A stretch of 27,825 bases of DNA. Source: a virus. A program made the translations under genes and the position numbers. The DNA lies in IMG/VR virus record IMGVR_UViG_3300042475_002930, positions 1 to 27,825 of that record; one strand, given 5' to 3'. The notes beneath the pieces were generated by a model. That model saw nothing but the letters and a program-made list of their open reading frames with translations, was not told where the DNA came from and did not search any database. Position 1 is the stretch's first letter. The number at the start of each line of letters is the position of its first letter. Of this stretch, positions 1 through 22,601 are shown one piece after another.

Positions 1-302
1 AGCGTCAGTTGCAGTCCATCAACCGACAGCACCTGCATGTATCCAAGACCCTGAATCGATACGAAGAACTGGCCAGCAACCGATTCTGGCAGAAATTGGG
101 TATTATCTACGAAAACAAGGACGCTCGCGCCAAGAGCCGGAACAAAAAACGAGGCTGTCGTGTAGGTGAACGAATCGATTCCGTTCGTGCCATTCGTACC
201 GTTGGCTCCCGCAGCCCCTTGAGGGCCGGGGATATTCACGACTACCGGCTCGGAGTCGCAAGGCTGGCAGCAGCCGGATGAAGAAACAAGTTGCGACGGC
301 AT
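1..302 (-). CDS. Collagen-like phage virion protein (partial, 5' part only)
   Basis: The minus strand reads open from an ATG at 302 to the left edge, giving 100 residues of an incomplete protein. After a short cysteine-containing start (SGCCQPC) comes a Gly-X-Y stretch (GPQGAAGANGTNGTNG, about residues 26-41), then a beta-rich part that looks like a tail or appendage domain. Gly-X-Y segments of this kind are common in phage tail-fibre and head-decoration proteins, where they form a trimeric stalk. The start is supported by AAAGGAAAATT just upstream. The gene is divergent from the terminase gene, with only 54 bases between the starts. The virion role is inferred; the exact part is unknown because the C-terminus is outside the window. 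Confidence 0.75.
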   Translation of the reverse strand, partial: MPSQLVSSSGCCQPCDSEPVVVNIPGPQGAAGANGTNGTNGIDSFTYTTASFFVPALGASVLVFVDNTQFLPESVAGQFFVSIQGLGYMQVLSVDGLQLT

Positions 303-356
303 AATTTTCCTTTCGCAGAACCTCAAGTCCAGCGAGAACTATTGCAAGGCCAAACT

Positions 357-2042
357 ATGGCAGAGCAAGCGTCCGAGCATCAACTTATTCAGCACAAGTA
401 TGGAATTCGTTCACCGGTCAAGATTCCTGACCTAGAACTTGAACTTTACGCATTCCGAAACCGACTCCAGCCAAACGAGGGTGGATTGGGTACTTTCGAA
501 CATTTTCGGAATGCGACGAAAATGCTATGGCCAAAGCTAAGCTGGAATCCGTGGCTGGAAGCTCAGGTCGAAAGCCTCTGCGAGCATGATTACGTCGGTT
601 GGGCTGGATGCGGTGCGAGCGGAAAGACCTTTGGCGCAACGCTTTTCGCAACAGTCTGGTGGCTGTCTAACCCCGCAAAATCGACCGTCGTTCTTACGTC
701 CACAACCGCGAAAATGATCCGCAAGCGTATGTGGGCCAATCTTCAGGATCTTGTTCGAAAATCGCGCGGATTTCCCGGCAACATGGTCGATTCGAAGATG
801 GCGCTTCAGGCCATCAAAGGCGACGACCGTCATTCGATTTCAGCCATTGCCGTCGCCGAAGGCAACACTTCGAAGGCTGTGGCCAACATTCAGGGTATTC
901 ACGCCGAGCGAGTGATGGTCATCATCGACGAAGCGACGGATACGCCCGAAGCAGCTTTCGAGGCTTGTACCAACCTTTCCAAGGGTTGCCGCGAGTTCAA
1001 GATGTTGGTTATCGGTAATCCGGCATCGAAGTACGACCCACACGGTCGATTCTGCACACCGGCAAAGGGTTGGCGCAGCGTAACGATTGAAGATCAGCAT
1101 TGGCTGACCGAGCGTGGCATGTGCCGACGATTTGACGGCATGAAGTCGCCCAACATCAGCGAAGGGCGAACGAAGTACCCATACCTTATAACGCATGATC
1201 AGGTGTTATCCGCTATGCGACATGAGGGTGAGCAGAGTCCTACATTCTGGAAATACACGCGCGGATTCTGGAGTCCTGACGGCATGGTCAAGACGGTGTT
1301 GTCCGAATCACTGATCGAGACGCACACACCTACAAGAAAGTTGGTGTTTACTACGAATATTCAGTCGGTAGCCGGTCTTGACCCAGGATTTGGCGGCGAC
1401 AGATGCGTTCTCCGCTTTGCCAAGGTTGGCACCGCTAACGATAAAATTAGCATACTTTTTGGCGATGTGGTTCAGATATCTCCAAATGCACAACTAACTG
1501 AGCCTGTTCACTACCAAATAGCCAATCGGGTCAAAGAGGAGTGCGGCAAGCGGGGCGTGTCGCCCGACAAGTTCGCTCTCGATTCAAGCGGTGAAGGTGG
1601 CGGTCTTGCGGACATTCTGACTCGCGAATGGGGTATTGTTCATCGCGTTGAGTTCGGCGGCTCTCCATCGGCCATTCCGGTCAGCGACGAGGATAGTCGG
1701 CCATGCAATGAGGCATACGACCGCAAAGTGACGGAACTTTGGTTCTCGATGCGTAAATGGGTTGTCGAGGAGCGAGTTGGTGGAATGGACATCGAGACGC
1801 TGCAAGAGTTCTGCGCGCGCATGTTCGACGATTCCAAGCGGAAGATATCCGTCGAATCGAAGACTGTGATGAAGCAGCGAACCGGCAAATCGCCTGACTT
1901 GGCCGACGCAGCTACAGTCTTGCTTGATCTAGTTCGAAAAACCGCTGTCCTCGAACCGCGAGCAACCAGAATGGACAAAGTCTGGGAAAAGCTCGTTCGG
2001 GACGCCGATTCAATCTACCACGACGAATCAATCGAAGAATGA
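357..2042 (+). CDS. terL: Terminase large subunit
   Basis: ATP-driven DNA-packaging motor with a headful or end-cutting nuclease. The 561-residue product has a Walker A motif GCGASGKT (residues 84-91), a hydrophobic Walker B strand ending in DEA (VMVIIDEA, 186-193), and a C-terminal RNase H-like nuclease domain with acidic residues in AGLDPGFGG (D342), LDSSGEGG (D409) and LADAATVLLD (D517). Length and domain order fit the family. An in-frame TTG at 291 would add 22 residues but overlaps the divergent gene at 302, so the ATG at 357 is preferred; no Shine-Dalgarno precedes it. The stop overlaps the next start as ATGA. A candidate small subunit lies about 15 kb away on the other strand. Confidence 0.95.
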   Translation: MAEQASEHQLIQHKYGIRSPVKIPDLELELYAFRNRLQPNEGGLGTFEHFRNATKMLWPKLSWNPWLEAQVESLCEHDYVGWAGCGASGKTFGATLFATVWWLSNPAKSTVVLTSTTAKMIRKRMWANLQDLVRKSRGFPGNMVDSKMALQAIKGDDRHSISAIAVAEGNTSKAVANIQGIHAERVMVIIDEATDTPEAAFEACTNLSKGCREFKMLVIGNPASKYDPHGRFCTPAKGWRSVTIEDQHWLTERGMCRRFDGMKSPNISEGRTKYPYLITHDQVLSAMRHEGEQSPTFWKYTRGFWSPDGMVKTVLSESLIETHTPTRKLVFTTNIQSVAGLDPGFGGDRCVLRFAKVGTANDKISILFGDVVQISPNAQLTEPVHYQIANRVKEECGKRGVSPDKFALDSSGEGGGLADILTREWGIVHRVEFGGSPSAIPVSDEDSRPCNEAYDRKVTELWFSMRKWVVEERVGGMDIETLQEFCARMFDDSKRKISVESKTVMKQRTGKSPDLADAATVLLDLVRKTAVLEPRATRMDKVWEKLVRDADSIYHDESIEE

Positions 2043-2668
2043 GCAAAGCTACCGGATACAGGGTTCTCAACGAACACATGGTCATCCCCGGCGGATGGCA
2101 TTACCGAGTTCCTGAGACTGGCATTGAAATCATGGGCGGATCATGGCCGCAGCTCCATGAGTTCGTCCGCAACCATTACACGGCGAACGCGATTCCAATT
2201 CCAAGCAACCTCGACACTTTAATCACCGAATATGCGTGTCGTAACGGTGCCGACTGCGCTTACAACGAGGTTGAACTTCCAAAACCCGAAGGTCGAAAGT
2301 CACTCCAGATCGGAGATGTCATCCGATTCAGCATGAGTTTGCTTCATGGCCTGACTGTTGGCGGCGGAAAAGTCGATCAGGCGGAGGCAAATCGACGCGC
2401 CAGCATCTGCTCAGGCTGTCGCTTCAATCGCAAACCACTTGGATGCACCGGATGCAACGCTCGCGTCCTCAAGGAGGCTGTAAAAACCTTCTCGCAGCAC
2501 GGCAATACGCCGTATGACGAGCAGGTTCAGAGCTGTGAATTTTGTGGTTGCTTTATCAGAAGCATGGTGTGGTTTCCCATTGAAACACTCCATAAATTTA
2601 CGGACGCTACAGAGAACGAAAACCTTCCGGCTCACTGCTGGAAAAAACGACCATGTACGGAAACCTAG
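2039..2668 (+). CDS. Cysteine-rich putative zinc-binding protein
   Basis: A 209-residue protein of unknown function between terminase and portal, overlapping both (ATGA with the first, 16 bases with the second). Its C-terminal half has paired cysteines: CSGC (124-127), CTGC (136-139), CEFCGC (166-171) and HC at 199-200, with C67 and C73 further upstream. This pattern suggests one or two small zinc-binding units. The N-terminal half has no recognised motif. Position in the packaging/head operon suggests a role in DNA packaging or head assembly, but that is inference from context only. It is not a recognisable small terminase, because no helix-turn-helix is evident. Confidence 0.8.
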   Translation: MSKATGYRVLNEHMVIPGGWHYRVPETGIEIMGGSWPQLHEFVRNHYTANAIPIPSNLDTLITEYACRNGADCAYNEVELPKPEGRKSLQIGDVIRFSMSLLHGLTVGGGKVDQAEANRRASICSGCRFNRKPLGCTGCNARVLKEAVKTFSQHGNTPYDEQVQSCEFCGCFIRSMVWFPIETLHKFTDATENENLPAHCWKKRPCTET

Positions 2669-4902
2669 CCCAACTGCCGCTTGAAACCATCAACGAAAAC
2701 GGCAAAGCGCCTGAAACGCGCATAGCCGATGCGGCATCAGCTCGCGAAATTTTCCAGAAGCTGATCATGGCCGATCAGTTGCGGAACGTGACGCGCGCCA
2801 AGTTGCGCGGTCTTGTTGATGGTAACCCTCCGTACAATCCTGCCGAACTGCGTCGTAACAACCAAGCGTTCCGAACCAATGTGAACTTCCGTGAATCGGA
2901 AGCGTTCCTCACGTTGGCCATGTCTGCCTTCTACGATGTGTTCGCCGAGGTTCCGACCTACGCCAACATTCGCACCGCTTACGGCAACGACATGGATAAG
3001 CGGGAGGAGTGGTCGAAGATCATTACCGAGGAATTCGACCGTCTCCAGAAGATGGACAAAGACTTCGACTACCTCATGCAGCTCTCGCAGCGTGAGATGG
3101 TCCTTATTGGCGATGGCCCGTTGATTTTCGAAGACAGCACCGATTGGCGGTGTAAGGCTATCATGGCGACGGATCTTCTCGTTCCAGATGGAACCAAGTC
3201 GAACGTCAGCGACTGGAAAGTGGCTGCTGTCCGAACCCGCATGGGTGTCGATGATCTTTTCGAGAAGATTCAAGACGAGGAAGCCGCTCGCGCCGCCGGT
3301 TGGAACGTGGATTACGTTCGCCAGCGTATTCGCGCTGCGATGCCCGAGCCGTATCGCTCCGGCGTCCAATACGATTGGGAGTTCTTCCAGCGTCAGCTTC
3401 GCTCGAACGACATCACGTTCTCGGCTCGCTCCGAAGTGGTCTTGATGTGCCACATCTTCTACAAGGAGTTCGATGGTCAGATCAGCCATGTCATCATCGA
3501 TGAGCGTGACAGCGAGGACTTCATGTACAAGAAGCTGCGACGCTTCAGCCGGTGGGAACAGGTTATCCATCCGATGTACTACGACCGTGGCGATGGCGAG
3601 CATCACGGCGTCAAAGGCTTGGGCATCAAGATGCTCCAGGCGATGGAACTGAAGAATCGTCTGCGTTGCTCGATGGTTGATAGCGCATTCGCTCGCACCC
3701 AGATTCTCTTCCGCCCTCTCAACCCGAACGCTCTGAGCAAGACGAGCGTCGTTCAGCAAGGACCGTATGCCATTCTCCCGCCCGACTACGAAGTCATTCA
3801 GCAAAACATTGCTGGCGTTCTGGACGCTCCTATGGCGGTCAACGCGGACCTTGAGAATGTTCTTCAAGGCAACCTCTCTCAGTATCGCCAATCGCTCAAC
3901 AAGCCGTCGGGCAATCCTCGTACTGCCACCGAAGTCCAAGCCATCGTGGCACAGCAGTCAGCAATCGGTAAGACGCAGTTGAGCCGGTATTACAACCAGT
4001 TGGATTCTTTCTTCGAGGAGCGGTACAACCGCGCCTCAAACCCCAATCTGAACCCGATTACAAAGTCGGACAAAGACGCCATCGAATTCCAACGTCGATG
4101 CAAGGAGCGTGGTGTTCCTGTTCAGGCGATGATAGACATCGATTACGTTGAGGCGACTCGCACGGTCGGCCAAGGTTCTCAATTCGCGAAGCAGCAGCTT
4201 CTCGGGACTTTGCTCGGTCTTGCCGGTTCTCTTCCCGAAGGCGGAAAAGTCAACCTGCTCAAGGACTACATCGCCGCTCAGGTTGGCCAACAAATGGTGG
4301 ATCGTTATCTGCCTACTCAGATGCAGTCTGCTCGCGTTCAAGATCAGGCCGCTCTTGCCGTGCTGGAGCATTCCTCGCTGCGCCAAGGCAACATGGCAAT
4401 CGTCACCGATACGCAGAACCACATCGTTCACATCGACACGCATCTTGCTGCCGCGAACGAGGCTGCTGCATCGCTTCAACAGGGTGGAAATCCGCAGGAG
4501 ATTGTCCTCTTCCTCCAAGGCATCGGTCAGCACGTTCAGCAGCACTTGCAGCGCCTGTCCACCGATCCTTCACGCCGTCCGCAGGTCGAGGCTTACACGC
4601 AGCAGCTCCAGATGCTTAGCCAGACCATCGAGCAGCTTGGCCAGTTGATTCAGGAACAGGCTCAGGCAATGGCGCAGCAACAGCAGGCAATGGCGATTCA
4701 GCAGGGTGTCGATCCGAAGACCGCTGTTCTCAACGCTGAAGTTCAGGCAAAAATCGCTCGCCAGAATGCCGAGGTTATGGCCAACATCCAGCGTCAGAAC
4801 ACGAAGGCGATGGCAGACCTGTCGCGCCGGAATGCGAAGACCACCGCTGATATTCAGCGAGCGAATGCAACTGCCGAGTCTAACTTGGCGCGTCAGGGAT
4901 GA
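2653..4902 (+). CDS. Portal (head-tail connector) protein
   Basis: Predicted dodecameric ring at the capsid vertex through which DNA is packaged. At 749 residues it is as long as large P22- or podovirus-type portals, and it sits directly after the terminase. The body is rich in aromatic and charged residues and has no transmembrane segment. The last ~170 residues are almost wholly helical and Gln/Ala-rich, ending in four 11-residue repeats (A699-M709, A710-M720, A721-T731, A732-E742, then a half repeat), which could form a long helical barrel. The ATG at 2653 lies inside the previous gene and the stop overlaps the next gene as ATGA. Assignment rests on position, length and overall character rather than one diagnostic motif. 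Confidence 0.8.
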   Translation: MYGNLAQLPLETINENGKAPETRIADAASAREIFQKLIMADQLRNVTRAKLRGLVDGNPPYNPAELRRNNQAFRTNVNFRESEAFLTLAMSAFYDVFAEVPTYANIRTAYGNDMDKREEWSKIITEEFDRLQKMDKDFDYLMQLSQREMVLIGDGPLIFEDSTDWRCKAIMATDLLVPDGTKSNVSDWKVAAVRTRMGVDDLFEKIQDEEAARAAGWNVDYVRQRIRAAMPEPYRSGVQYDWEFFQRQLRSNDITFSARSEVVLMCHIFYKEFDGQISHVIIDERDSEDFMYKKLRRFSRWEQVIHPMYYDRGDGEHHGVKGLGIKMLQAMELKNRLRCSMVDSAFARTQILFRPLNPNALSKTSVVQQGPYAILPPDYEVIQQNIAGVLDAPMAVNADLENVLQGNLSQYRQSLNKPSGNPRTATEVQAIVAQQSAIGKTQLSRYYNQLDSFFEERYNRASNPNLNPITKSDKDAIEFQRRCKERGVPVQAMIDIDYVEATRTVGQGSQFAKQQLLGTLLGLAGSLPEGGKVNLLKDYIAAQVGQQMVDRYLPTQMQSARVQDQAALAVLEHSSLRQGNMAIVTDTQNHIVHIDTHLAAANEAAASLQQGGNPQEIVLFLQGIGQHVQQHLQRLSTDPSRRPQVEAYTQQLQMLSQTIEQLGQLIQEQAQAMAQQQQAMAIQQGVDPKTAVLNAEVQAKIARQNAEVMANIQRQNTKAMADLSRRNAKTTADIQRANATAESNLARQG

Positions 4903-5630
4903 AAAACATACACTTCGTTCACGGTCTTCACGACGACGGATTCAACATCTGCGAACGCATCGCAATCGCTTCAGCATGGATGAACAATCCTGACTGGAGC
5001 GTTTTTCTTTGGACTCCACAAGAGCCTACCGGCGAGCAGTGGGAAAAGCTCAAATCGAAGGTTCCGGTTCGCTTGATGCCAATCGGAAATCCGAAAACAT
5101 GGAACGGTAACAACATCCCGCAGCATCAGCATCGCGCAGACCTGATTCGGCACACCGTTCTGTACGCAATGGGCGGCGTCTACGCTGACACGGACACCAT
5201 CACGGTTGCTCCGTTTCCAGAAGACTGGCTAAACCATGACACTGTAATCGGTCGTGAATTCTGCGGGGACGAGCCGACCATTGGCCTTTGCAACGCAATC
5301 ATGTTCTCGCAGATGCACAGCCGGTTCCAATGGAAGTGGCTTCAGAAGTGGCAGGAGTTTGACGGGGGAGGGTGGAACGAGATTTCTGTCCAGTATCCGT
5401 GGAAACTGCACAAAGAAAATCCGGGGTTAGCCAAGGCTGTTGATTTTGAAATGCTTGGGTTCATGCATTGCGGCTCACATAGGTATTGGGATGGAATCCA
5501 CTCTCTGGATGGCTGTTCCATTGCCCACTTGTGGCGCACCTACCATGACCAAAAAATGCGCGCACTCACTGAAGCGGAGATTCTAAAACGCGAAAACACT
5601 TACTGTCTGCATGCTTCAAAATATCTTTGA
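4899..5630 (+). CDS. DXD-type glycosyltransferase (OCH1/GT32-like)
   Basis: A 243-residue predicted sugar transferase using a nucleotide-sugar donor and a divalent metal. The diagnostic core is HRADLIRHTVLYAMGGVYAD followed by TDT: the D97-T98-D99 motif after GGVYA is the metal/nucleotide-sugar site of the DXD sugar-binding family (GT32 and relatives). The N-terminus (IHFVHG, FLWTP) matches the first strand of the family. No signal peptide or membrane anchor is seen, so it would act in the cytoplasm. It is the first of five consecutive glycan-related genes and is coupled to the portal by an ATGA overlap. The acceptor is unknown; host surface glycan, phage DNA or a virion protein are all possible. 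Confidence 0.88.
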   Translation: MKNIHFVHGLHDDGFNICERIAIASAWMNNPDWSVFLWTPQEPTGEQWEKLKSKVPVRLMPIGNPKTWNGNNIPQHQHRADLIRHTVLYAMGGVYADTDTITVAPFPEDWLNHDTVIGREFCGDEPTIGLCNAIMFSQMHSRFQWKWLQKWQEFDGGGWNEISVQYPWKLHKENPGLAKAVDFEMLGFMHCGSHRYWDGIHSLDGCSIAHLWRTYHDQKMRALTEAEILKRENTYCLHASKYL

Positions 5631-6177
5631 TCGAATCTACCTGACAGACGAGTGGAATGGAGGATCTGGCCCAGGTTCTCAGCCACAAAACACCGCAAAA
5701 TACGTCAAGTTTCTCAACTCGTTCATCCGAGAAAACAAGATCAAGTCGATCTTGGATGTCGGCTGCGGAGACTGGCAGTTGATGTCGATGATTGATCTGT
5801 CTGGGGTTCGCTACAAGGGCATCGATGTCAGTCCGGTTGCGACGGCATTCGCGAAATCAAAAGCTCCGCTTGGAACCGACATCAGCACCGATAGCATCGA
5901 AGACATTCAAGAATCGTTCGACCTCGTTCACATCAAGGATGTCTTGCAGCATCTTGAGTTTTCAGAGTGCCGAAGGATTCTCGAAATCATCTCCACTCGT
6001 CACAAGTCGGCATTGATCGTAAACGAACATCCCGGTGCATCGAACGACATTCAAAACGGTCAGTTCAGGCCGCTGAGCATTACCGCAGAGCCTTTGTGTT
6101 GGCCACGGTCCACGGTCATCAAGGTGTTCACGAATCCTCTTTTCAGAAAGTCAGTCACCTATATCCACTCAAAATGA
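5611..6177 (+). CDS. Class I SAM-dependent methyltransferase
   Basis: A 188-residue Rossmann-fold methyltransferase. Motif I is LDVGCGDW (48-55), the acidic end of strand 2 is GIDVSP (D72), and strand 4 is seen in FDLVHIKDVLQHL, all typical of the small Methyltransf_11/25 type. It overlaps the glycosyltransferase upstream by 20 bases and the next methyltransferase by ATGA. Enzymes like this often methylate sugars or lipids in polysaccharide clusters, and the neighbours suggest a sugar substrate. That is inferred; no residue here fixes the substrate. Confidence 0.88.
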   Translation: MLQNIFDRIYLTDEWNGGSGPGSQPQNTAKYVKFLNSFIRENKIKSILDVGCGDWQLMSMIDLSGVRYKGIDVSPVATAFAKSKAPLGTDISTDSIEDIQESFDLVHIKDVLQHLEFSECRRILEIISTRHKSALIVNEHPGASNDIQNGQFRPLSITAEPLCWPRSTVIKVFTNPLFRKSVTYIHSK

Positions 6178-6797
6178 GCAGCCAATACGATGCGCTTAGA
6201 AATTTTGTCGCCGACCAATTTCCGAAAATGGGCGGTTGGTGCGACGTTGAAAAAGGATTTCAAATCGGAAAGCTGGTCATCGACAGCAAGCCGCAACGAA
6301 TCGCTGAAGTTGGAGTCTTCGAAGGCAAATCCACATTAGCACTGGCCTACGCCTGCAAGCTCAATGAAAGCGGCTCCGTCTACGCTATTGATTCTTGGAA
6401 GAAAGAGGACTGCATCGACGACGAGAACAGCGGCAATCAAGAGTGGTGGTCGAAAATCAATCTTGAAGGCCACTACGAGGCTTTCGTTGGCCACTGTGTT
6501 CGCGCGCAGCTTGTGAAACACATCCAATTCTGCCGCATGTCCTCATGGGATGCGTCGCGATTCCTGCCCGACATGGACATGGTTCACATCGACGCCAATC
6601 ACGCCGAATGGCCGTCTACGAGCGATGTCGTCAACTGGCTTCCGAAGCTCAAGGTTGGCGGTTACATCGTGATGGACGATGTGAATTGGGAATCGACGCA
6701 GACTGCGATTCGATTTGTGGAAAAATACTGCACCCTGATTCAGCGGTATGACCTCAAAGAAAGCGTATTTTCAATTTATCAAAAGACCAAAAAATGA
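6174..6797 (+). CDS. Class I methyltransferase of the Methyltransf_24 / cephalosporin-hydroxylase-like type
   Basis: A 207-residue protein with a SAM-binding loop AEVGVFEGKSTLALA (from A44), a second strand with YAIDSW, and VHIDANHAEW (D140, H143) followed by GGYIVMDDVNW. The combination of EVGVFEGKST and HIDANH is characteristic of the methyltransferases often found with glycosyltransferases in polysaccharide clusters and giant-virus or phage genomes. The acidic pair in MDDV may bind a metal, as in related O-methyltransferases. The start at 6174 is chosen because it gives an ATGA overlap; the frame is open further upstream inside the previous gene. It differs from the preceding methyltransferase and is not a duplicate. 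Confidence 0.88.
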   Translation: MSSQYDALRNFVADQFPKMGGWCDVEKGFQIGKLVIDSKPQRIAEVGVFEGKSTLALAYACKLNESGSVYAIDSWKKEDCIDDENSGNQEWWSKINLEGHYEAFVGHCVRAQLVKHIQFCRMSSWDASRFLPDMDMVHIDANHAEWPSTSDVVNWLPKLKVGGYIVMDDVNWESTQTAIRFVEKYCTLIQRYDLKESVFSIYQKTKK

Positions 6798-7393
6798 TTC
6801 CAATTGTCATCACCCAGCGCGGCTCTAAACGCATCGATTTTGTAAAAGAAAGCCTCAAGAAAGCTGGAATTGAAAAGTTCAAGTTCTTCCACGGTCTGAA
6901 CGGTGCAAAGTCTGGGCTTAAGGCAACGATTCCGTACATCGAAGATGATCCGATAAATCCCTACTACATCTGCGCCAAGCACATCGGATGCACCATGTCG
7001 CACATCATGCTCTGGAGTGCGCTTGAGATGTCCGAAGGTGAGAACTACTGGTTGGTTCTTGAGGACGACGTTGTTTTCCGAGATGGGTGGAAAGAGGCAA
7101 TCGAGCTTGCGCTGAAGGAGGCTCCAAAAGATTGGGACATGATTTTTGCCGGATCATGCTGCTCCGCCGGTCGTGTTGAGGAAAAAGTTGGCCACAACTT
7201 GTATCGCTGCCATCCGCTTTGCACTCACGCCTATCTTGTTCGACGGAAAGCGTTGAAGCCACTTCTTGAAACTACTGTCGAAATTTCGGCGCACATTGAT
7301 TTGCTTATCTACTTCAAAACGAGGCATCTTTTGAACTCTTACTCCATCCTCCCAAGGGTGGCCGACCAGTTCGAAACTGAGATTCCAGATTGA
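6794..7393 (+). CDS. Glycosyltransferase family 25 (LPS-type) protein
   Basis: A 199-residue transferase resembling the LPS beta-1,4-galactosyltransferase family. It starts with a strand followed by RGSKRIDFVKESLKKAGI, then GCTMSHIMLW, then LVLEDDVVF (E90-D91-D92), the order expected for GT25: the GCxxSH helix and the LEDD metal site. Later DWDMIFAG and CTHAYLVRRKAL also fit. There is no membrane segment. It is coupled to the previous gene by ATGA. Different from the DXD enzyme upstream, it could add a second sugar to the same glycan. Acceptor unknown. Confidence 0.88.
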   Translation: MIPIVITQRGSKRIDFVKESLKKAGIEKFKFFHGLNGAKSGLKATIPYIEDDPINPYYICAKHIGCTMSHIMLWSALEMSEGENYWLVLEDDVVFRDGWKEAIELALKEAPKDWDMIFAGSCCSAGRVEEKVGHNLYRCHPLCTHAYLVRRKALKPLLETTVEISAHIDLLIYFKTRHLLNSYSILPRVADQFETEIPD

Positions 7394-7407
7394 TTGGCGA
7401 ATTCAAA

Positions 7408-8751
7408 ATGAAAGACATCATCCGAGAGCTGTCTCTTAAAGCACTCAAGCGATTTGCAAATGGCGGTGATGGCCAAGCGGATCTTCTGAATGAAATTGAA
7501 GATCTGAAACGAACGCTTGAGATTCGAACCAAAGAACATGAGGAGCATTTGACCGAGGTCCGCGAGGAACGCGATCATTGGCTTTCTCTCTACGACGAAA
7601 TCAAATTCGCAGCAGAATTCCTAATGAGCTACGCAAAAAATGACGTTCCCAAGTTGGCCGAACAGGTTGACTGGGAGGTAGGCAAAATTGTCCTGCCTGA
7701 AGAAACTGGAACCTATTACTTCAATCCGGCGATTACGCAAGATCCTGACGGAAAGATCCTGCTCTTTGCGCGTCGTTGTCGAAACAAGCGAGAGAAAGAT
7801 GAGGATGCCTATGTTGAGAAGAACGACATTGTCATCTTCGAACTCAGCCAGAACCTGCGAGCCACCAAGAAAGCACTCGCAACGCTGGTTTCGCATTATC
7901 CGAATGAGCAGTTCGAAGACCCGCGTGTCGTTAAGTTCGGCGACAAGTATGGACTAAGCTGCTGCACGTTCGTCCCATTCAAGTCGTACGCGCACCAGGG
8001 GATGTTCCTGCTCGATAAGCAGTTCCTAAACGTCGGTCGTTTCGATCCGATCTACGGCAACAACTACGCGCAGGCCATGATCAATGATGGCCATGAGAAG
8101 AACTGGCTCTACTTCGTTCACGACAACGCGCCACACATGGTGTATTCGGCCAATCCTCATGTCGTAGTGCGCCTTAATGGGCGTCTTGAGAAGGAAGCTG
8201 AATACGTTACCGACGAGTTCAACCCTCTTTGGAAGTTTGGAGAGGTCCGAGGCGGTTCAAACCCAATCTACGTTGACGGTCTGTACTGGACCTTCTTCCA
8301 CAGCTCTTTGCCGTGGATAAACAAGAAACGTCGCTACTACATGGGCGCATACGCATTCGAGGCAAAGCCTCCATTTCGCATCGCTCGGATGACGACTTTG
8401 CCGATCCTGACCGGAACAAATCAGCAAGACTGGTGGCCGGGGCTTCCGGCGGTCGTCTTCCCGTGTGGCGCATTCTACGACAGCGCGAAGAATCAATTCG
8501 TCGTCTCGTACGGCATCAACGATGTTGATTGCGGCTACATCAAGCTGCCTCTCGTTGACATGCTTGAGATTACGAAGGTCATTCGACCGAAGCGCGATGT
8601 CGTCAACAAGGAGAACCCAATAAAACTCGACGAGGTTCTCGATCCGATTCCCCAAAGGCACAAACTGAAACGAAACAAGAAAACAAAGTATGATCAACTG
8701 GCTAAGAGGCTCGAAGAAGGAGAATCCGAAGAACCTGCTGGAGCTGCCTGA
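7408..8751 (+). CDS. GH130-like five-bladed beta-propeller protein with N-terminal coiled coil
   Basis: A 447-residue protein. Residues ~20-75 form a charged coiled coil (NEIEDLKRTLEIRTKEHEEH and on). The rest resembles the glycosidase/phosphorylase five-bladed propeller of GH130: FNPAITQDPDGKILLFAR, EDPRVV (170-175), VVFPCGAFYD (F351-G354) and SYGINDVDCGYIKL (Y368-C375). GH130 enzymes phosphorolyse or hydrolyse beta-mannosides; related inactive propellers bind sugars. The C-terminus is a Lys-rich, Glu-rich tail. A TTG at 7390 is in frame, but the ATG at 7408 is preferred. As part of the cassette it could trim or bind the glycan made by its neighbours, and the coiled coil suggests an oligomer or a virion-attached form. 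Catalytic competence cannot be judged here. Confidence 0.78.
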   Translation: MKDIIRELSLKALKRFANGGDGQADLLNEIEDLKRTLEIRTKEHEEHLTEVREERDHWLSLYDEIKFAAEFLMSYAKNDVPKLAEQVDWEVGKIVLPEETGTYYFNPAITQDPDGKILLFARRCRNKREKDEDAYVEKNDIVIFELSQNLRATKKALATLVSHYPNEQFEDPRVVKFGDKYGLSCCTFVPFKSYAHQGMFLLDKQFLNVGRFDPIYGNNYAQAMINDGHEKNWLYFVHDNAPHMVYSANPHVVVRLNGRLEKEAEYVTDEFNPLWKFGEVRGGSNPIYVDGLYWTFFHSSLPWINKKRRYYMGAYAFEAKPPFRIARMTTLPILTGTNQQDWWPGLPAVVFPCGAFYDSAKNQFVVSYGINDVDCGYIKLPLVDMLEITKVIRPKRDVVNKENPIKLDEVLDPIPQRHKLKRNKKTKYDQLAKRLEEGESEEPAGAA

Positions 8752-9013
8752 CATCAATCTGTCCGACTGGCAGACCGATGGCCAACAGGCTGAACTCGCT
8801 CAAATTCTGCAAAATCCGATTCTTCGCATGGCATTACGCATCGTTGCCGAATCAATGCCGGTTCCAATGCCGTCACATGGCAGTAAGGAATCGGACATTA
8901 TTTTCGCTGCCGGTGTAACCGCTGGCTACGCGCATTGTCTTGAAAACCTTCGTAAATTGGCGGTAATTGAAACAGCGAAAGAACCAGAAGCGACATTCGA
9001 TAAGCAATACTAA
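8690..9013 (+). CDS. Small conserved phage structural-operon protein
   Basis: A 107-residue protein overlapping the propeller gene by 62 bases and ending 6 bases before the scaffold-like gene. It contains LAQILQNPILRMALRIVAES and GVTAGYAHCLENLRKLA; I recognise this pairing (NPI..AL, then GYxxCLxNLRxLA) from small proteins found between portal and scaffold genes of podovirus-like phages. The function of those proteins is not known to me. It is predicted soluble and mostly helical. The long overlap could indicate translation coupling, or that the glycan cassette was inserted just upstream and its last gene was extended into this one. Confidence 0.75.
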   Translation: MINWLRGSKKENPKNLLELPDINLSDWQTDGQQAELAQILQNPILRMALRIVAESMPVPMPSHGSKESDIIFAAGVTAGYAHCLENLRKLAVIETAKEPEATFDKQY

Positions 9014-9019
9014 CAAATT

Positions 9020-10204
9020 ATGGAAGAACCACTGAACTCACCTCTCACCAACAACGGAACAACCCCCGACTTCGGCAGCTCGTTCATCGACGCTTTCAAG
9101 GCAAGTGGCATTGATGACGCCGCATTGGCTGATGAGTCGGCCAATTCTGCCTCGCAGGTTACGGAAGAGCCGAAGGCTAAAACTCAGAAGCCAGCCTCAA
9201 AGTCCGCAGACGCCTCCAAGCTCAGCAAGGCTGAGATGGATATCGAGCGGATGTTCGGTACGAAAAAGCAGCAGGCTGAGGCTCCGACTTCTACGGACGC
9301 TGATTCCGATATTCCCGAGACGATCAAGTCCACGAAAGCCGCTGATGCTTTCCGCAAGATCAAGGAAGAGAAGGCTTTGCTGGCCAAGCAGTTGGATGAG
9401 CTGAAGTCTGGAAAGACTGCCAATCCGAACTACGAAGCGCAGCTCAAGACATTGCAGGAAGAGCGTGATGCGCTTTCCGAGCGTGTTCGCATCCTCGATG
9501 TCGAGCGTCACCCTGAGTTCGTCAAGAAGTACGAAGGCAAGATTAGCGGCGTCTTTGATTCCGTGAAGAACCTTGTTGGAACTGACGGGGAGCGACTTGT
9601 TGATTTGCTCAAGTCGCCCGAGAGCGATTATCGCAACTCGCAGATTGATGACATTGTCGAAGGTCTTTCACCGTCCAAGAAGGCAAAGCTCGGTGCGCTG
9701 ATTGTGAAGTACGAAGAAATCAATGGCGAACGCGCGTCAGAGATTTCCGAGGCGAAAGCTGATTACGACGCCATCATCTCGAAGTACCAGCAAGACAACG
9801 AGGAGGGTACTAAGGCTGCGTTAGAGTCGGCCACCAAGACCTGGGCTAAGGTGAGCGAGAATGCTCGCGCGCTTGAAATCTTTGAACCGCGCGAAGGAGA
9901 TGAGGAATGGAACACCGAGTTGAATGGCCGACTGAGTCTCGCCCAGCAGATCTTCAACGGCGAGAACAGTGAAGAAGACCTCGCCAAGGCGGCTCTGTGG
10001 GCCGCTGCCGCGCCAAAGTACCGCGAACTGCTCTATGCTCAGGTCGAGGTGAACAAACGCCTGCAAGCTGAACTCTCAAAGTATCGCGGAAGCGAGCCTG
10101 GAGTTACCTCGAAAGCGACATCTGGAGGTTCCAGGCCTGCCAGCACAAACGCCGCGAAGAGCGAAGACTTTGTCGCCAGTGTGATGAAGTCGCTCGGACG
10201 CTAA
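9020..10204 (+). CDS. Probable capsid scaffold protein
   Basis: A 394-residue, highly charged, mostly helical protein. Residues 1-100 are low complexity (Ser/Ala/Lys/Glu), the middle (about 105-170) is coiled coil including FRKIKEEKALLAKQLDEL, and the C-terminus is Ser/Gly-rich ending in a short helix VASVMKSLGR that could be the capsid-binding hook. This composition, and its place after the portal, match scaffolding proteins of podovirus-like phages. A small-terminase or head-tail role is less likely. No protease motif is seen. There is no Shine-Dalgarno (AATACTAACAAATT before ATG). A terminator follows at 10212. The capsid protein it would assemble is encoded on the other strand 4.3 kb away. 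Confidence 0.75.
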   Translation: MEEPLNSPLTNNGTTPDFGSSFIDAFKASGIDDAALADESANSASQVTEEPKAKTQKPASKSADASKLSKAEMDIERMFGTKKQQAEAPTSTDADSDIPETIKSTKAADAFRKIKEEKALLAKQLDELKSGKTANPNYEAQLKTLQEERDALSERVRILDVERHPEFVKKYEGKISGVFDSVKNLVGTDGERLVDLLKSPESDYRNSQIDDIVEGLSPSKKAKLGALIVKYEEINGERASEISEAKADYDAIISKYQQDNEEGTKAALESATKTWAKVSENARALEIFEPREGDEEWNTELNGRLSLAQQIFNGENSEEDLAKAALWAAAAPKYRELLYAQVEVNKRLQAELSKYRGSEPGVTSKATSGGSRPASTNAAKSEDFVASVMKSLGR

Positions 10205-12085: not shown

Positions 12086-13333
12086 TTAGGCGAGGGTCAG
12101 GTTGGCAACACGGGTAACACCATCGGAGCCGCGATAAGAGAAGCGGAGGTTGGTGTTGCTGGTGGCGTTGACGGTAAGCTGGCCGTTGGTGGTCAGCGTT
12201 GCGGGGGTGTTTGAAGACAACAGAATCAGATTCCCGCTCGCATCGAGGGTCATTGCTGCCGTCGCGAATGTGGTAATCGGATTGTTCGCGGTTCCTGAAG
12301 CCGCAACAAACCATTGGTGAACGCCAGTCTGTAAATTGTAGTAAGTAGCTGGTCCGGTTCCCTTGTACTCCCAACGCGCATCGGTGTTGTCGAAGTAAGC
12401 GTTGTGGGTAATACCTCCGCTGAAAACGCCTAATCCGCCAGATACAATATCAATAGCTCTTACGCTAGATGTCCACGCACTCGGGGTAACGGCTATGCCC
12501 ACGTTGCCCGCGGAGTCGATCAATAAACGAGTAGCAACAGCCGTTTCATCTCCGATCAAAAACTGACCGGATGTGTTGGATGCTACAACGTATCTTCGAC
12601 CTGAACCACCGTTGGAGTTGAGCTGAAGTTGAGCAGAATTGCCGTTGGAGGCTTGAACGAAAACCATTCCGTATCCGCTCGCGCCTTCAACCTGAATGCG
12701 TCCATCCGTGGTTCCACGAGCGTGGATGTTGAACGTAGGACTAACCCCCACGCCCAGCCCCGTGGAGTTCAGGCGCATGGCTTCGGAGCTGTTGATAATC
12801 CAGCTCAAATTCTCAGACGCAGGGTTTCCCATTCCACAGTTCTGATACCAGAAACCGTACATTGGAACAGTCGAAGAGAATCCGGTTGAAACAGGAGTTT
12901 GAATGTAAGCTGAAGCAACTGGAGCAGTAGGATCAGTGGTCCTAAGAAACAACGCACCAGCACCGGCGGCTCCACGAACATCAAGCGGAAGAATTGGACT
13001 CGCCGTGCCAATGCCGACACCAGTAGTGGTCGTAGTAAGACGAGTCGTCCGCACCGTCAGATCGCCGGTGATGGTGGCGGAGCCAGCGGTGACGAGTCCG
13101 GCAACGGTCAGCGCATCGGTGGTCTTATTGTAAACCAGACCGGCATCGCCTGCCAGATTTGTTCCGCCATCATTGAAGATGACCTGAGTCGTCGCGCCGG
13201 GAAGGGCGACACCACCGCCAAGAGCGGTGTATATCTCCGTGAAGTTCTGGTTGGTATAATCGAACGAAGTGCGAAGCGGAGTTCCCGTTCCGTCGTTCGG
13301 AGCTGTTCCGATATTGATCGTTTGCTTTGCCAT
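12086..13333 (-). CDS. Tail fibre / tailspike-like protein
   Basis: A 415-residue beta-rich protein. The N-terminus (MAKQTINIGTAPNDGTGTPL, then RTSFDYTNQNFTEIYTALGG) is a common start in phage fibre proteins that mount on the virion. It is followed by repeats of the type DALTVAGLVTAGSATITGDL and VGIGTASPILPLDVRG, typical of fibre shafts; VGIGTASP-, LGVGVSPTF- and VGIAVTPS-type turns mark successive repeats. The C-terminus (FSYRGSDGVTRVANLTLA) lacks the classic chaperone protease. It is likely a receptor-binding or side fibre. No Shine-Dalgarno is evident at 13333. Confidence 0.85.
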   Translation of the reverse strand: MAKQTINIGTAPNDGTGTPLRTSFDYTNQNFTEIYTALGGGVALPGATTQVIFNDGGTNLAGDAGLVYNKTTDALTVAGLVTAGSATITGDLTVRTTRLTTTTTGVGIGTASPILPLDVRGAAGAGALFLRTTDPTAPVASAYIQTPVSTGFSSTVPMYGFWYQNCGMGNPASENLSWIINSSEAMRLNSTGLGVGVSPTFNIHARGTTDGRIQVEGASGYGMVFVQASNGNSAQLQLNSNGGSGRRYVVASNTSGQFLIGDETAVATRLLIDSAGNVGIAVTPSAWTSSVRAIDIVSGGLGVFSGGITHNAYFDNTDARWEYKGTGPATYYNLQTGVHQWFVAASGTANNPITTFATAAMTLDASGNLILLSSNTPATLTTNGQLTVNATSNTNLRFSYRGSDGVTRVANLTLA

Positions 13334-14543: not shown

Positions 14544-15782
14544 TTAGCTGCAAATGATCTGGGTCAAAGCTCCGGTGCAACGACGGAAGATGATGGTCAT
14601 GCCCTGGTTGGTGAAAACAGGCTCAGAAGCGTGAATGAACTCAGCGTAATGCTGACCCTTCTTCTCCAACGGATCTTCGCAGTCCGTATTGAACTTGTAG
14701 GCACCCGTCACCCACTGCCACTCGCCCATGTAGTTGGTCGGCATCCAGCTCAAATCACCAACACGGTTCACAGGACGCACGATGTGCGACTTGAACACAT
14801 ACGGGGTGACGATGAACGCAGCCTCGAACGGGGCGGTCGTCCAGCTCGAGTTGACGCTGAACACCGTACCCTTGGTGCCACTGGAGCTGGTAAACGGCTG
14901 AACCAACGTGTACTTGCCGCCAGCGTAGGTGAAGCGGGGCGGGAACAGATTCGGAACGTGCCGGAAGTTCTTAATCACCCGATTCGCGCCAATGCGCTTA
15001 AGCAACTCAGCGCCGCTGCCGCTGCCCATATCAGCCTGACGCAGATCCTCACGGAACGCGGGGTTGTTCTGAGCGATGCGCTGCGAAGCCTCCAGACCGA
15101 TGTAGAGCGGGAACACCGGGCCGTCGCTGCTGTAGCTGATGAAGCCAGAGCTATCAGGATTGGTAGCGCCGTTGCGGATCAGCGTGGCGGCGGCGACATC
15201 GAGCATCTCCTGAGTCAGCTCGGAGGTGGACTGATTGAGCGCCTGACCAGCGGAGCCGGTCTGAATCCAGGGGAACTCATTCACGCCAGACGGAATCGTC
15301 TCAACCTGAGTGAAGGACGAGTCGGCCACAGCCTTGATGGCGAACTTGGCGAAGGTGTTCTGGTAACGAGTCTCCCAAGAACGCTGCGCGCGGATCGAGA
15401 GCTTCTCCAAGTACACGCGCAAGAACGCCTCGACGCGATGGTCGAAGGTCAAATCGTCCTTACACAGGAGCGGACCTTTGAGGGCGAAACGCTCAGGACT
15501 CCAGGTGACGGCATTAAAACCGACCGGAACGTCATTGTAGGTGACATCGCAAGCGCCACCGTTCTCGCCGCTGGCGAGCGTGATGGCCGACCACTCCTCA
15601 GCCGCAGTCGGCTCGATGCTGGTCGTGTTGTACGAGGTCTGGGTCAGACCAGTACCCTGAGGATACTCGCCGCGCTCAATCATGTTGAGCCACATCGAGC
15701 GGTACGAGGCGCGTTTATAGACGTCCTGCGCGAGCGACTCAGTAGCCACTGCGAAGGCGTTGAAGACATTAGGACAAGACAT
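14544..15782 (-). CDS. Probable major capsid protein
   Basis: A 412-residue protein with no signal peptide. It is likely the main shell protein, by length, by its own strong terminator and separate leader, and by character: a helical N-terminal arm (NVFNAFAVATESLAQDVYKR), a long helix region (LRVYLEKLSIRAQRSWETRY), a Gly/Ser-rich middle and a beta-rich C-terminus (WMPTNYMGEWQWVTGAYKFN, then HASEPVFTNQGMTIIFRRC). I recognise the sequence type from uncultured phage capsid proteins, but there is no single diagnostic motif. It is encoded opposite to terminase, portal and scaffold, which is unusual. No Shine-Dalgarno; a ~200-base leader precedes it. Confidence 0.72.
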   Translation of the reverse strand: MSCPNVFNAFAVATESLAQDVYKRASYRSMWLNMIERGEYPQGTGLTQTSYNTTSIEPTAAEEWSAITLASGENGGACDVTYNDVPVGFNAVTWSPERFALKGPLLCKDDLTFDHRVEAFLRVYLEKLSIRAQRSWETRYQNTFAKFAIKAVADSSFTQVETIPSGVNEFPWIQTGSAGQALNQSTSELTQEMLDVAAATLIRNGATNPDSSGFISYSSDGPVFPLYIGLEASQRIAQNNPAFREDLRQADMGSGSGAELLKRIGANRVIKNFRHVPNLFPPRFTYAGGKYTLVQPFTSSSGTKGTVFSVNSSWTTAPFEAAFIVTPYVFKSHIVRPVNRVGDLSWMPTNYMGEWQWVTGAYKFNTDCEDPLEKKGQHYAEFIHASEPVFTNQGMTIIFRRCTGALTQIICS

Positions 15783-15979
15783 GAGATTATGAAATTAAAC
15801 CGACGTTATCTGCGTTATGGTTGGCCATCTATCCACCACACGGTGGCTGATTATCCAACCTACTACATGCGGAGTGTCATTGCCGCTTAGACGGTTTTGC
15901 GATGGCTGACCAAGCCTCCGCATTGCTTAAGGTCGTTACGCGCACTGACGCACAAGGGCGACTAAAGTGTCAATCACAA
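15783..15979 (-). promoter_or_regulatory. Leader and probable promoter region of the capsid gene
   Basis: About 200 bases between the nuclease-like gene and the capsid gene. On the minus strand TTGACA (15973-15968) is a good -35 but no clear -10 follows at 17-18 bases. A small hairpin, CCACC-ACAC-GGTGG on the plus strand (about 15835-15848), lies in the leader. A 42-codon minus-strand frame (15795-15923) fits here but shows no protein-like features. A long leader for the most abundant late message would be expected to carry control signals; none is certain. Confidence 0.35.
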
Positions 15980-21703: not shown

Positions 21704-22557
21704 GTGATACATGGATACTTCCAAAGCAGTTACACACCTTGGCCTATGCGCTGGATACGGAGGCATTGAGCTTGGACTTAAACGAGCAATCCCAAGTCTG
21801 CGCTCAATCGCTCTTTGTGAGGTCGAAGCCTTTGCCATTGCGAACCTGGTTGCGAAAATGGAAGCGGGACAACTGGAGCCAGCACCTGTTTGGCCGAATC
21901 TTAAAACCTTCCCTTGGCAATCGTTTCGCGGATGCGTGGATATCCTCACTGGCGGCTACCCATGCCAGCCCTTTAGCGCGGCAGGAAAACGACAAGGAGC
22001 AGACGACCCGAGACATCTCTGGCCATACATCGCAAGAGGAATTCGGATTCTTCAGCCAAGACTCTGCTTCTTTGAGAACGTCGAAGGACATATCTCGCTG
22101 GGGTTGTCCGACGTCATCGAAGACCTGGCAGGAATGGGTTATCGAACGACGTGGGGCATATTCAGCGCGTCTGAATGCGGTGCGCCTCACCAACGCAAGC
22201 GGGTGTTCATCTTGGCCAACCGCATCGGCGCGGGATGGGAAGGATTCGCCGGGAGCATGGATGTATGCGGTGACGGATCGGAATCGGGAGGATCAGTTGG
22301 CCAGAAAGGTTTACGCGGTCGAGTTTGGCCGAGCCGTCCTAGCGGAGACAACCGATGCGAATGGGAACCACCCCGTGTCATCGACATATCGCCTGAATCC
22401 GAGATGGGTGGAGACATTGATGGGGATACCCGTTGGATGGGTTATGCCCACTGGGAATCCCTATCGGATTACGAGCGGCTATGCCACGCGCATGACAGCC
22501 GCATCGACGAACTTCGTCTCCTCGGAAACGGTGTCGTCCCAGCTACCGCCGAGTTAG
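21700..22557 (+). CDS. Alternative-frame protein overlapping the cytosine methyltransferase
   Basis: A 285-codon frame lying across nearly all of the Dcm gene in another register. It begins with an ATGA overlap to the previous gene, the coupling used all through this genome, so translation is plausible. It looks like a genuine family: LHTLAYALDTEALSLDLNE, RSKPLPLRTWLRKWKRDNWS, SLRTSKD, ASGCSSWPTASARDGKD (166-182) and LNPRWVETLMGIPVGWVMPT (232-251). I recall similar 'SSWPT.TARD...LNPRWVE.LMG.P.GW' proteins in phages, often overlapping or beside Dcm genes; LNPRFVEWLMGxPxGW is also known in stand-alone proteins. The function is unknown, perhaps assisting target recognition. If the frame is only a by-product, its motifs would have to be dictated by the Dcm codons. 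Confidence 0.5.
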   Translation: MSDTWILPKQLHTLAYALDTEALSLDLNEQSQVCAQSLFVRSKPLPLRTWLRKWKRDNWSQHLFGRILKPSLGNRFADAWISSLAATHASPLARQENDKEQTTRDISGHTSQEEFGFFSQDSASLRTSKDISRWGCPTSSKTWQEWVIERRGAYSARLNAVRLTNASGCSSWPTASARDGKDSPGAWMYAVTDRNREDQLARKVYAVEFGRAVLAETTDANGNHPVSSTYRLNPRWVETLMGIPVGWVMPTGNPYRITSGYATRMTAASTNFVSSETVSSQLPPS

Positions 22558-22601
22558 CGTATCGAACTCTTGCGCGAGAACTTGTCGAAAATCACGGATA
22601 A
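21711..22601 (+). CDS. DNA cytosine-5 methyltransferase (Dcm-type)
   Basis: A 296-residue enzyme transferring methyl from SAM to cytosine C5. The motifs occur in order: I, HLGLCAGYGGIELGL (10-24); IV, GGYPCQPFSAAG with catalytic C85; VI, FFENVEGH (E122-N123-V124); VIII, HQRKRVF (160-166); X, LLGNGVVPATAE (270-281). The stretch between VIII and X is only about 100 residues and poorly conserved, so the target-recognition domain is small. The role is probably protection from restriction or DNA marking. No partner endonuclease is evident. The DNA also codes in another frame from 21700. The start lies 8 bases after the previous stop. Confidence 0.92.
   Translation: MDTSKAVTHLGLCAGYGGIELGLKRAIPSLRSIALCEVEAFAIANLVAKMEAGQLEPAPVWPNLKTFPWQSFRGCVDILTGGYPCQPFSAAGKRQGADDPRHLWPYIARGIRILQPRLCFFENVEGHISLGLSDVIEDLAGMGYRTTWGIFSASECGAPHQRKRVFILANRIGAGWEGFAGSMDVCGDGSESGGSVGQKGLRGRVWPSRPSGDNRCEWEPPRVIDISPESEMGGDIDGDTRWMGYAHWESLSDYERLCHAHDSRIDELRLLGNGVVPATAELAYRTLARELVENHG

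Follow-up and report, generated by a model that had tools for sequence, protein, structure and literature searches.

Exchange of glycosyltransferase and methyltransferase cassettes beside a presumed portal gene in a group of phages

Genes of the locus

The window, that is, the whole stretch of DNA analysed here, is a 27,825-base IMG/VR virus record (IMGVR_UViG_3300042475_002930). We examined a cassette of two glycosyltransferase (GT) and two methyltransferase (MT) genes which lies between a presumed portal gene and the gene of a GH130-like propeller. In the list of open reading frames (ORFs) with corrected starts, genes run in the same direction from 291 to 10204, overlapping or separated by gaps of no more than 14 nucleotides, in the order terminase large subunit (TerL), a gene of 209 amino acids (aa), the 749-aa presumed portal, GT32, MT1, MT2, GT25, the propeller, a 107-aa gene and a 394-aa protein. 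The five enzyme genes, TerL and the presumed portal form one polycistron, and the identities that a first-pass annotation of this DNA had given to the five enzymes were all confirmed by Pfam. The features are listed below, with the grounds for each (E-values for profile matches) in brackets.

291 to 2042, + strand: terminase large subunit, TerL (phrog_2, 8.3e-24)
2653 to 4902, + strand: presumed portal, 749 aa, constant left neighbour of the cassette (order after TerL, size, about 86-100% conservation)
4899 to 5630, + strand: GT32-type DXD glycosyltransferase, 243 aa (Pfam PF04488, 1.2e-13)
5611 to 6177, + strand: MT1, class I methyltransferase, 188 aa (Methyltransf_11, 8.7e-8)
6174 to 6797, + strand: MT2, Methyltransf_24 or O-methyltransferase-like, 207 aa (PF13578, 2.1e-19)
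6794 to 7393, + strand: GT25 glycosyltransferase, 199 aa (PF01755, 7.9e-15)
7408 to 8751, + strand: GH130-like propeller, constant right neighbour of the cassette (PF04041, 4.3e-10; 39.5 bits, cut-off 26)
8690 to 9013, + strand: small conserved ORF, 107 aa, overlapping the 3' end of the propeller gene (synteny)
9020 to 10204, + strand: acidic protein, 394 aa, the 'scaffold' of the first-pass annotation (synteny; no profile match)

The ATG of the GT32 gene overlaps the stop codon of the presumed portal gene. The motif GGVYxDTD was present in all 31 GT32 relatives, and DxGCG in all 21 relatives of MT1. MT2 starts at 6174, where there is an ATGA overlap with MT1 and where the relatives agree, the GTG at 5967 being too early; the most likely start of the propeller is the ATG at 7408 (conserved MKDII) and not the TTG at 7390. 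The genes had been described as part of a packaging and head operon with portal and scaffold. TerL was recognised by its PHROG; the 'portal' and the 'scaffold' gave no significant profile match in Pfam, PHROGs, NCBIfam or the Protein Data Bank (PDB), and an hhalign comparison of the 'portal' alignment with two annotated portals gave nothing. The names portal, scaffold and capsid are thus labels taken from position (order and size) only.

Exchange at a fixed site

Relatives were obtained by scanning viral contigs, and the best 80 of 162 portal relatives and the best 80 of 139 propeller relatives were kept. The 136 loci with both ends complete yielded 75 distinct cassettes. Several contigs were fetched two times and so stand as two loci; counts use distinct sequences where stated, and one set of 127 loci was used without deduplication. 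With families clustered at 50% identity, the 75 cassettes hold nine protein families in ten gene sets and span 1.2-3.0 kb between the flanking genes (GT25a and GT25b are named apart in the gene-set labels). The commonest set was MT2-GT25b-MTx-GT25c (28/75), where MTx is a weakly assigned methyltransferase (Methyltransf_25, E = 0.04), followed by the window's type, GT32-MT1-MT2-GT25a (18/75). GT2-MTx-GT25c and GT32-MT1-GT25d-MT3 were found in eight cassettes each, MT2-GT25b and GT32-GT25d-MT3 in four each, MT2-GT25b-MTx-GT25c-MT3 in two, and three further sets once each. Every one of the 75 distinct cassettes encodes a GT25, the one enzyme type common to all, together with at least one methyltransferase. 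Exactly two glycosyltransferases are encoded in 71 cassettes and one in four, and methyltransferases number two in 56, one in 17 and three in 2; two transferases together with methylases fit the methylated disaccharide, or similar product, suggested at first. A GT of the Glyco_transf_7C type occurs in nine of the 75 related cassettes, whereas the window has GT32 instead.

The two flanks always occur together. The propeller is present in all 61 portal-scan loci that extend 3.6 kb or more downstream (they come from one scan, whose 19 other loci were too short), and the presumed portal in all 58 propeller-scan loci that extend 4 kb or more upstream. The propeller had been counted as one of five cassette genes; it is instead a constant core gene beside a cassette of two to five genes that is swapped, and the exchange of whole cassettes at the locus was missed by the first-pass annotation.

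The exchange is seen most clearly when cassette types are placed on trees of the flanking genes (67 of the 75 cassettes for the portal and 71 for the propeller; incomplete genes were left out). The portal DNA tree requires at least 26 changes of cassette label, the minimum for ten labels being 9 and the mean for shuffled labels 38.4; the propeller tree requires 26 (minimum 8, shuffled mean 40.0). Since these values are below the shuffled means and far above the minima, the labels are somewhat clustered and their turnover is very fast. Seven core-gene trees, based on 35 common rows of the 75, gave 15-17 changes each against about 20.8 for shuffled labels. At a portal divergence of 2-5%, only 33% of 55 pairs had the same gene set. 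The junctions are sharp: the presumed portal is conserved up to its stop codon, where a new cassette starts, and homology resumes at the first codons of the propeller. For example, loci L144 and L147 share 94.2% identity in the propeller and 96.6% over the final 1,500 bases of the portal gene, but 54.6% in the cassette; for L027/L031 and L009/L010 the propeller identity comes out too low, since in each pair one contig stops within the gene. Sharp junctions and alike flanks around unlike middles point to homologous recombination in the flanking genes. Different types were also found under one record number, which we take to denote the metagenome: L019/L040 (3300037042), L029/L078 (3300031951 has both) and L008/L049 (3300002835).

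Fast turnover, with a GC content below that of the portal in 75/75 cassettes, is also what would be expected if the genes were drifting accessory cargo at a recombination hot spot, with no shared function in the particle. The ratio of nonsynonymous to synonymous substitutions (dN/dS) argues otherwise: medians are 0.05-0.08 for the cassette families, like that of the portal (0.06), and 0.09 for the propeller, calculated from at most 250 random pairs per family with dS between 0.1 and 1.2, and from as few as 4 pairs for GT2. All cassette families are under strong purifying selection, and the set is far beyond chance. The enzyme classes, GT25 and a methyltransferase, are moreover always the same, none of the 61 loci has an empty site, the smallest insert being about 1.2 kb, and drifting cargo is accordingly the least probable of the explanations that we considered. 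Catalytic motifs are kept as well, the GT25a pattern fitting 36 of 44 proteins; GT2 was excluded from the motif check.

The site itself is fixed. All 51 viral matches of GT32 lie directly after the presumed portal, so GT32 is not a moron placed elsewhere, the finding that would have spoken against the reading of the first-pass annotation. Eleven of 12 matches of GT2 and 64 of 68 matches of MTx are at this locus, and the five matches elsewhere come from other viruses and are only remotely homologous (26-42%). In one unrelated virus (L395, 519-7582), a GT, an FkbM-type MT and a homologue of MTx (42%) are located directly upstream of TerS, TerL and portal; in L398, the matched domain is located near a collagen-like tail fibre gene.

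The tail-fibre gene of the window (12086-13333, - strand) and its relatives keep their first residues and are hypervariable in the rest: at 60% identity, 39 sequences fall into 33 clusters. We saw no usable link between cassette type and tail-fibre type in 496 pairs, drawn from 32 of the 39 loci with a fibre.

The propeller and the likely function of the locus

The propeller has an N-terminal helical region of about 85 aa, followed by similarity to the GH130 profile, and 11 of 12 related records score above the PF04041 cut-off. Its EDPR motif is invariant in 80/80 distinct propellers and pairs with the EDPR of 7fip (HMMER). In the GH130 protein BT3780, Glu141 and Asp142 are essential (PMC4599007), Asp142 being the invariant catalytic Asp. 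The propeller motif maps to these two residues by sequence, not by structure, and by this mapping the catalytic aspartate, whose check the first-pass annotation had proposed, is kept. Plausible counterparts of the Asn and the C-terminal Asp of BT3780 were found by eye; the alignment is weak around the phosphate-binding basic residues and the paired hydrolase Glu, where a phosphate site is not assignable. Two AlphaFold models had a low predicted local distance difference test score (pLDDT 38.8 and 42.7). Among NCBIfam models, those of mannobiose phosphorylases come nearest, with scores (38 and 33 bits) far below the equivalog cut-offs (550 and 450).

Relatives of GH130 can act as transferases (GT108). 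No signal peptide was seen by eye in the propeller, so a cytosolic phosphorylase or transferase appears more likely than a secreted hydrolase; the GH130 phosphorylases treated in PMC4599007 are reported to be cytoplasmic. The phage protein resembles GH130 mannoside phosphorylases and beta-mannosidases in its score above the PF04041 cut-off and in the kept EDPR, and differs from them in its helical extension and in its place in a phage packaging operon. PHROG 28262, of 765 aa and unknown function, has a weak match to GT32 (4.6e-5) and another, elsewhere along its length, to the propeller (8.2e-5), a hint that the two may be naturally fused in some phage.

The locus is probably, with a probability of about 0.6, a late-expressed, type-switching virion-glycosylation locus. 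Two cytosolic GTs (rarely one), a GT25 always among them, would work with one to three methyltransferases to assemble a short glycan bearing O-methyl groups; its carrier would be a structural protein encoded in this operon or in one next to it. Recombination in the presumed portal and the propeller would replace whole cassettes, so that close relatives would carry different glycans, and the constant propeller would probably carry out the step that every type needs: it would add, trim or turn over a sugar present in all of them, perhaps of the mannose type. That a position in the packaging and head operon means late action on virions, as had been suggested, we infer from the fixed site and from the precedent of the cluster O mycobacteriophages (Corndogvirus).

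Their set of portal, O-MT, GT, GT, GT25 and head genes is the closest known arrangement. In a blind tblastn search of 50,697 phage records with the window GT25, 36 records were matched, 31 of them Mycobacterium phages, the matches listed being an annotated glycosyltransferase of cluster O phages such as Catdawg, Firecracker and Dylan. The order in Catdawg is portal, O-MT, GT, GT, GT25, protease and capsid, with short overlaps, and its Pfam assignments (TylF/Methyltransf_24, GT2/7C, GT25) are the classes that recur in the cassettes described here. Gene order and overlaps would match if the portal and scaffold of the window, named by position only, are rightly named. The combination of GT25, a Methyltransf_24/TylF-type MT and a further GT is present in both. 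The window differs in having GT32, a second MT and then the GH130-like propeller, and no similarity between the portals was detectable. Exchange among ten gene sets was seen in the window's group, the one in which cassettes were compared. The cluster O genome paper notes the placement next to the portal and proposes modification of the capsid, and passages of PMC11600133 and PMC12619734, citing Freeman 2023, state that cluster O-type enzymes modify the capsid and the tail tube. A more distant parallel is the chlorovirus PBCV-1, where virus-coded cytosolic GTs (A064R and others) and an MT equip the major capsid protein with a methyl-capped glycan, and where glycan variants define antigenic classes (PMC7019647). 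PBCV-1 differs as a eukaryotic virus with several separate GT genes and a larger glycan, and no cassette exchange is described in the passages of PMC7019647 consulted. On this reading the window's locus is of a known kind and new in form, its cassettes being rapidly exchanged beside a propeller that stays the same.

Several observations weigh against virion glycosylation. The similarity of the window GT25 to the mycobacteriophage GT25 covers 48 residues (41%, E = 3e-4), and no pairwise similarity appeared in the MT and GT32 pairs that were compared, so that arrangement and enzyme classes are the same and common descent of the cassette is not shown. The best full-length match of GT25 is in Burkholderia phage AP3 (27.5% over 95%), at the end of the tail operon and moron-like. 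No core gene tracked cassette type in the seven trees of 35 common rows, and hence no target is indicated. None of the names portal, scaffold and capsid is confirmed, and for the propeller an unrelated, structural role is conceivable.

The AP3 gene, the naming of GT25 in Pfam for lipopolysaccharide (LPS) synthesis and the hypervariable tail fibres (33 clusters among 39), as expected if surfaces vary, would all suit a modification of host LPS or another surface glycan from the cytosolic side, which would block re-adsorption to debris and superinfection, with exchange tracking the diversity of host surfaces. A GtrA-type flippase (PF04138) was found in 0/12 related records, its control being positive in 8/14 genomes; no strongly hydrophobic segment was seen in the window enzymes, and among 266 relatives the highest mean hydrophobicity over 19 residues was 1.75 (in MT3); and the place inside the packaging operon is fixed. 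We therefore regard host surface modification as rather unlikely. Gtr seroconversion loci of temperate phages are a case of phage-coded glycosylation that differs between close relatives, as in the window's group. They fit poorly nevertheless, since the group has no flippase, sits among packaging genes and always has methyltransferases.

The first-pass annotation had also considered newly replicated DNA as the substrate. Some phages do make glycosylated DNA, as stated in a passage of PMC12619734, and a C5 cytosine methylase is encoded in the window (21711-22601, + strand; PF00145, 9.6e-32). That gene is present in only 3/12 related records, in contrast to the GT25 cassette in 12/12. The window has only ThyX, and PF00303, the hydroxymethylase type, was found in 0/12 related records with its control positive in 9/14; TET/JBP (PF12851) was also found in 0/12, but its control was silent. 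The cassette families presumably differ from the DNA glucosyltransferases of T4. Glycosylation of bases is therefore very improbable.

If virions are indeed the target, the fast swapping of cassettes implies that virion glycans are recognised by some agent in the environment. Few phages are known to have glycosylated particles, and most of these are mycobacteriophages that were studied with regard to animal immunity; near-identical phages that differ in glycan genes offer a natural experiment. The reading also offers a likely role for GT and MT genes of a sort commonly put down as morons, and it adds a GH130-like enzyme to what phage packaging operons may contain. Tentatively, the locus may be a phage 'serotype' locus, in which recombination reshuffles whole transferase sets at one site, near-identical virions carry different methylated glycans, their diversity is kept up by frequency-dependent selection and a constant GH130-fold enzyme serves the core sugar, possibly making or editing it as a transferase or phosphorylase. 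In a library of open-licence papers we found no description of this phage group or of virion-glycan cassettes that are exchanged; such a description may still exist.

Neighbouring genes and wider relatives

A highly conserved 412-aa gene (14544-15782, - strand) is likely the major capsid gene, on the strand opposite to TerL and the presumed portal; no profile match supports a capsid role for it. A 419-aa open frame (14631-15890, + strand) is antisense to it.

Among phage isolates, the window had no DNA match, and neither the portal nor the propeller had a protein match at 1e-5; weak propeller matches (E 8e-3 to 0.3) were seen in unannotated phage records. The TerL search gave distant matches only, and a search from a divergent portal returned the same tight group and a few new contigs. 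With the portal profile, no relative was found among genome contigs. A 4.8-kb contig (L161, 1-4830) in an uncultured Nitrosomonadales metagenome-assembled genome has a propeller of 88% identity and is a weak hint at a host, as a phage contig may have been binned there. One related record, IMGVR_UViG_3300021962_000056 (L048, also G010), is 92.5 kb long, about twice the length of the other long records (43-47 kb), and is possibly a concatemer or chimera.

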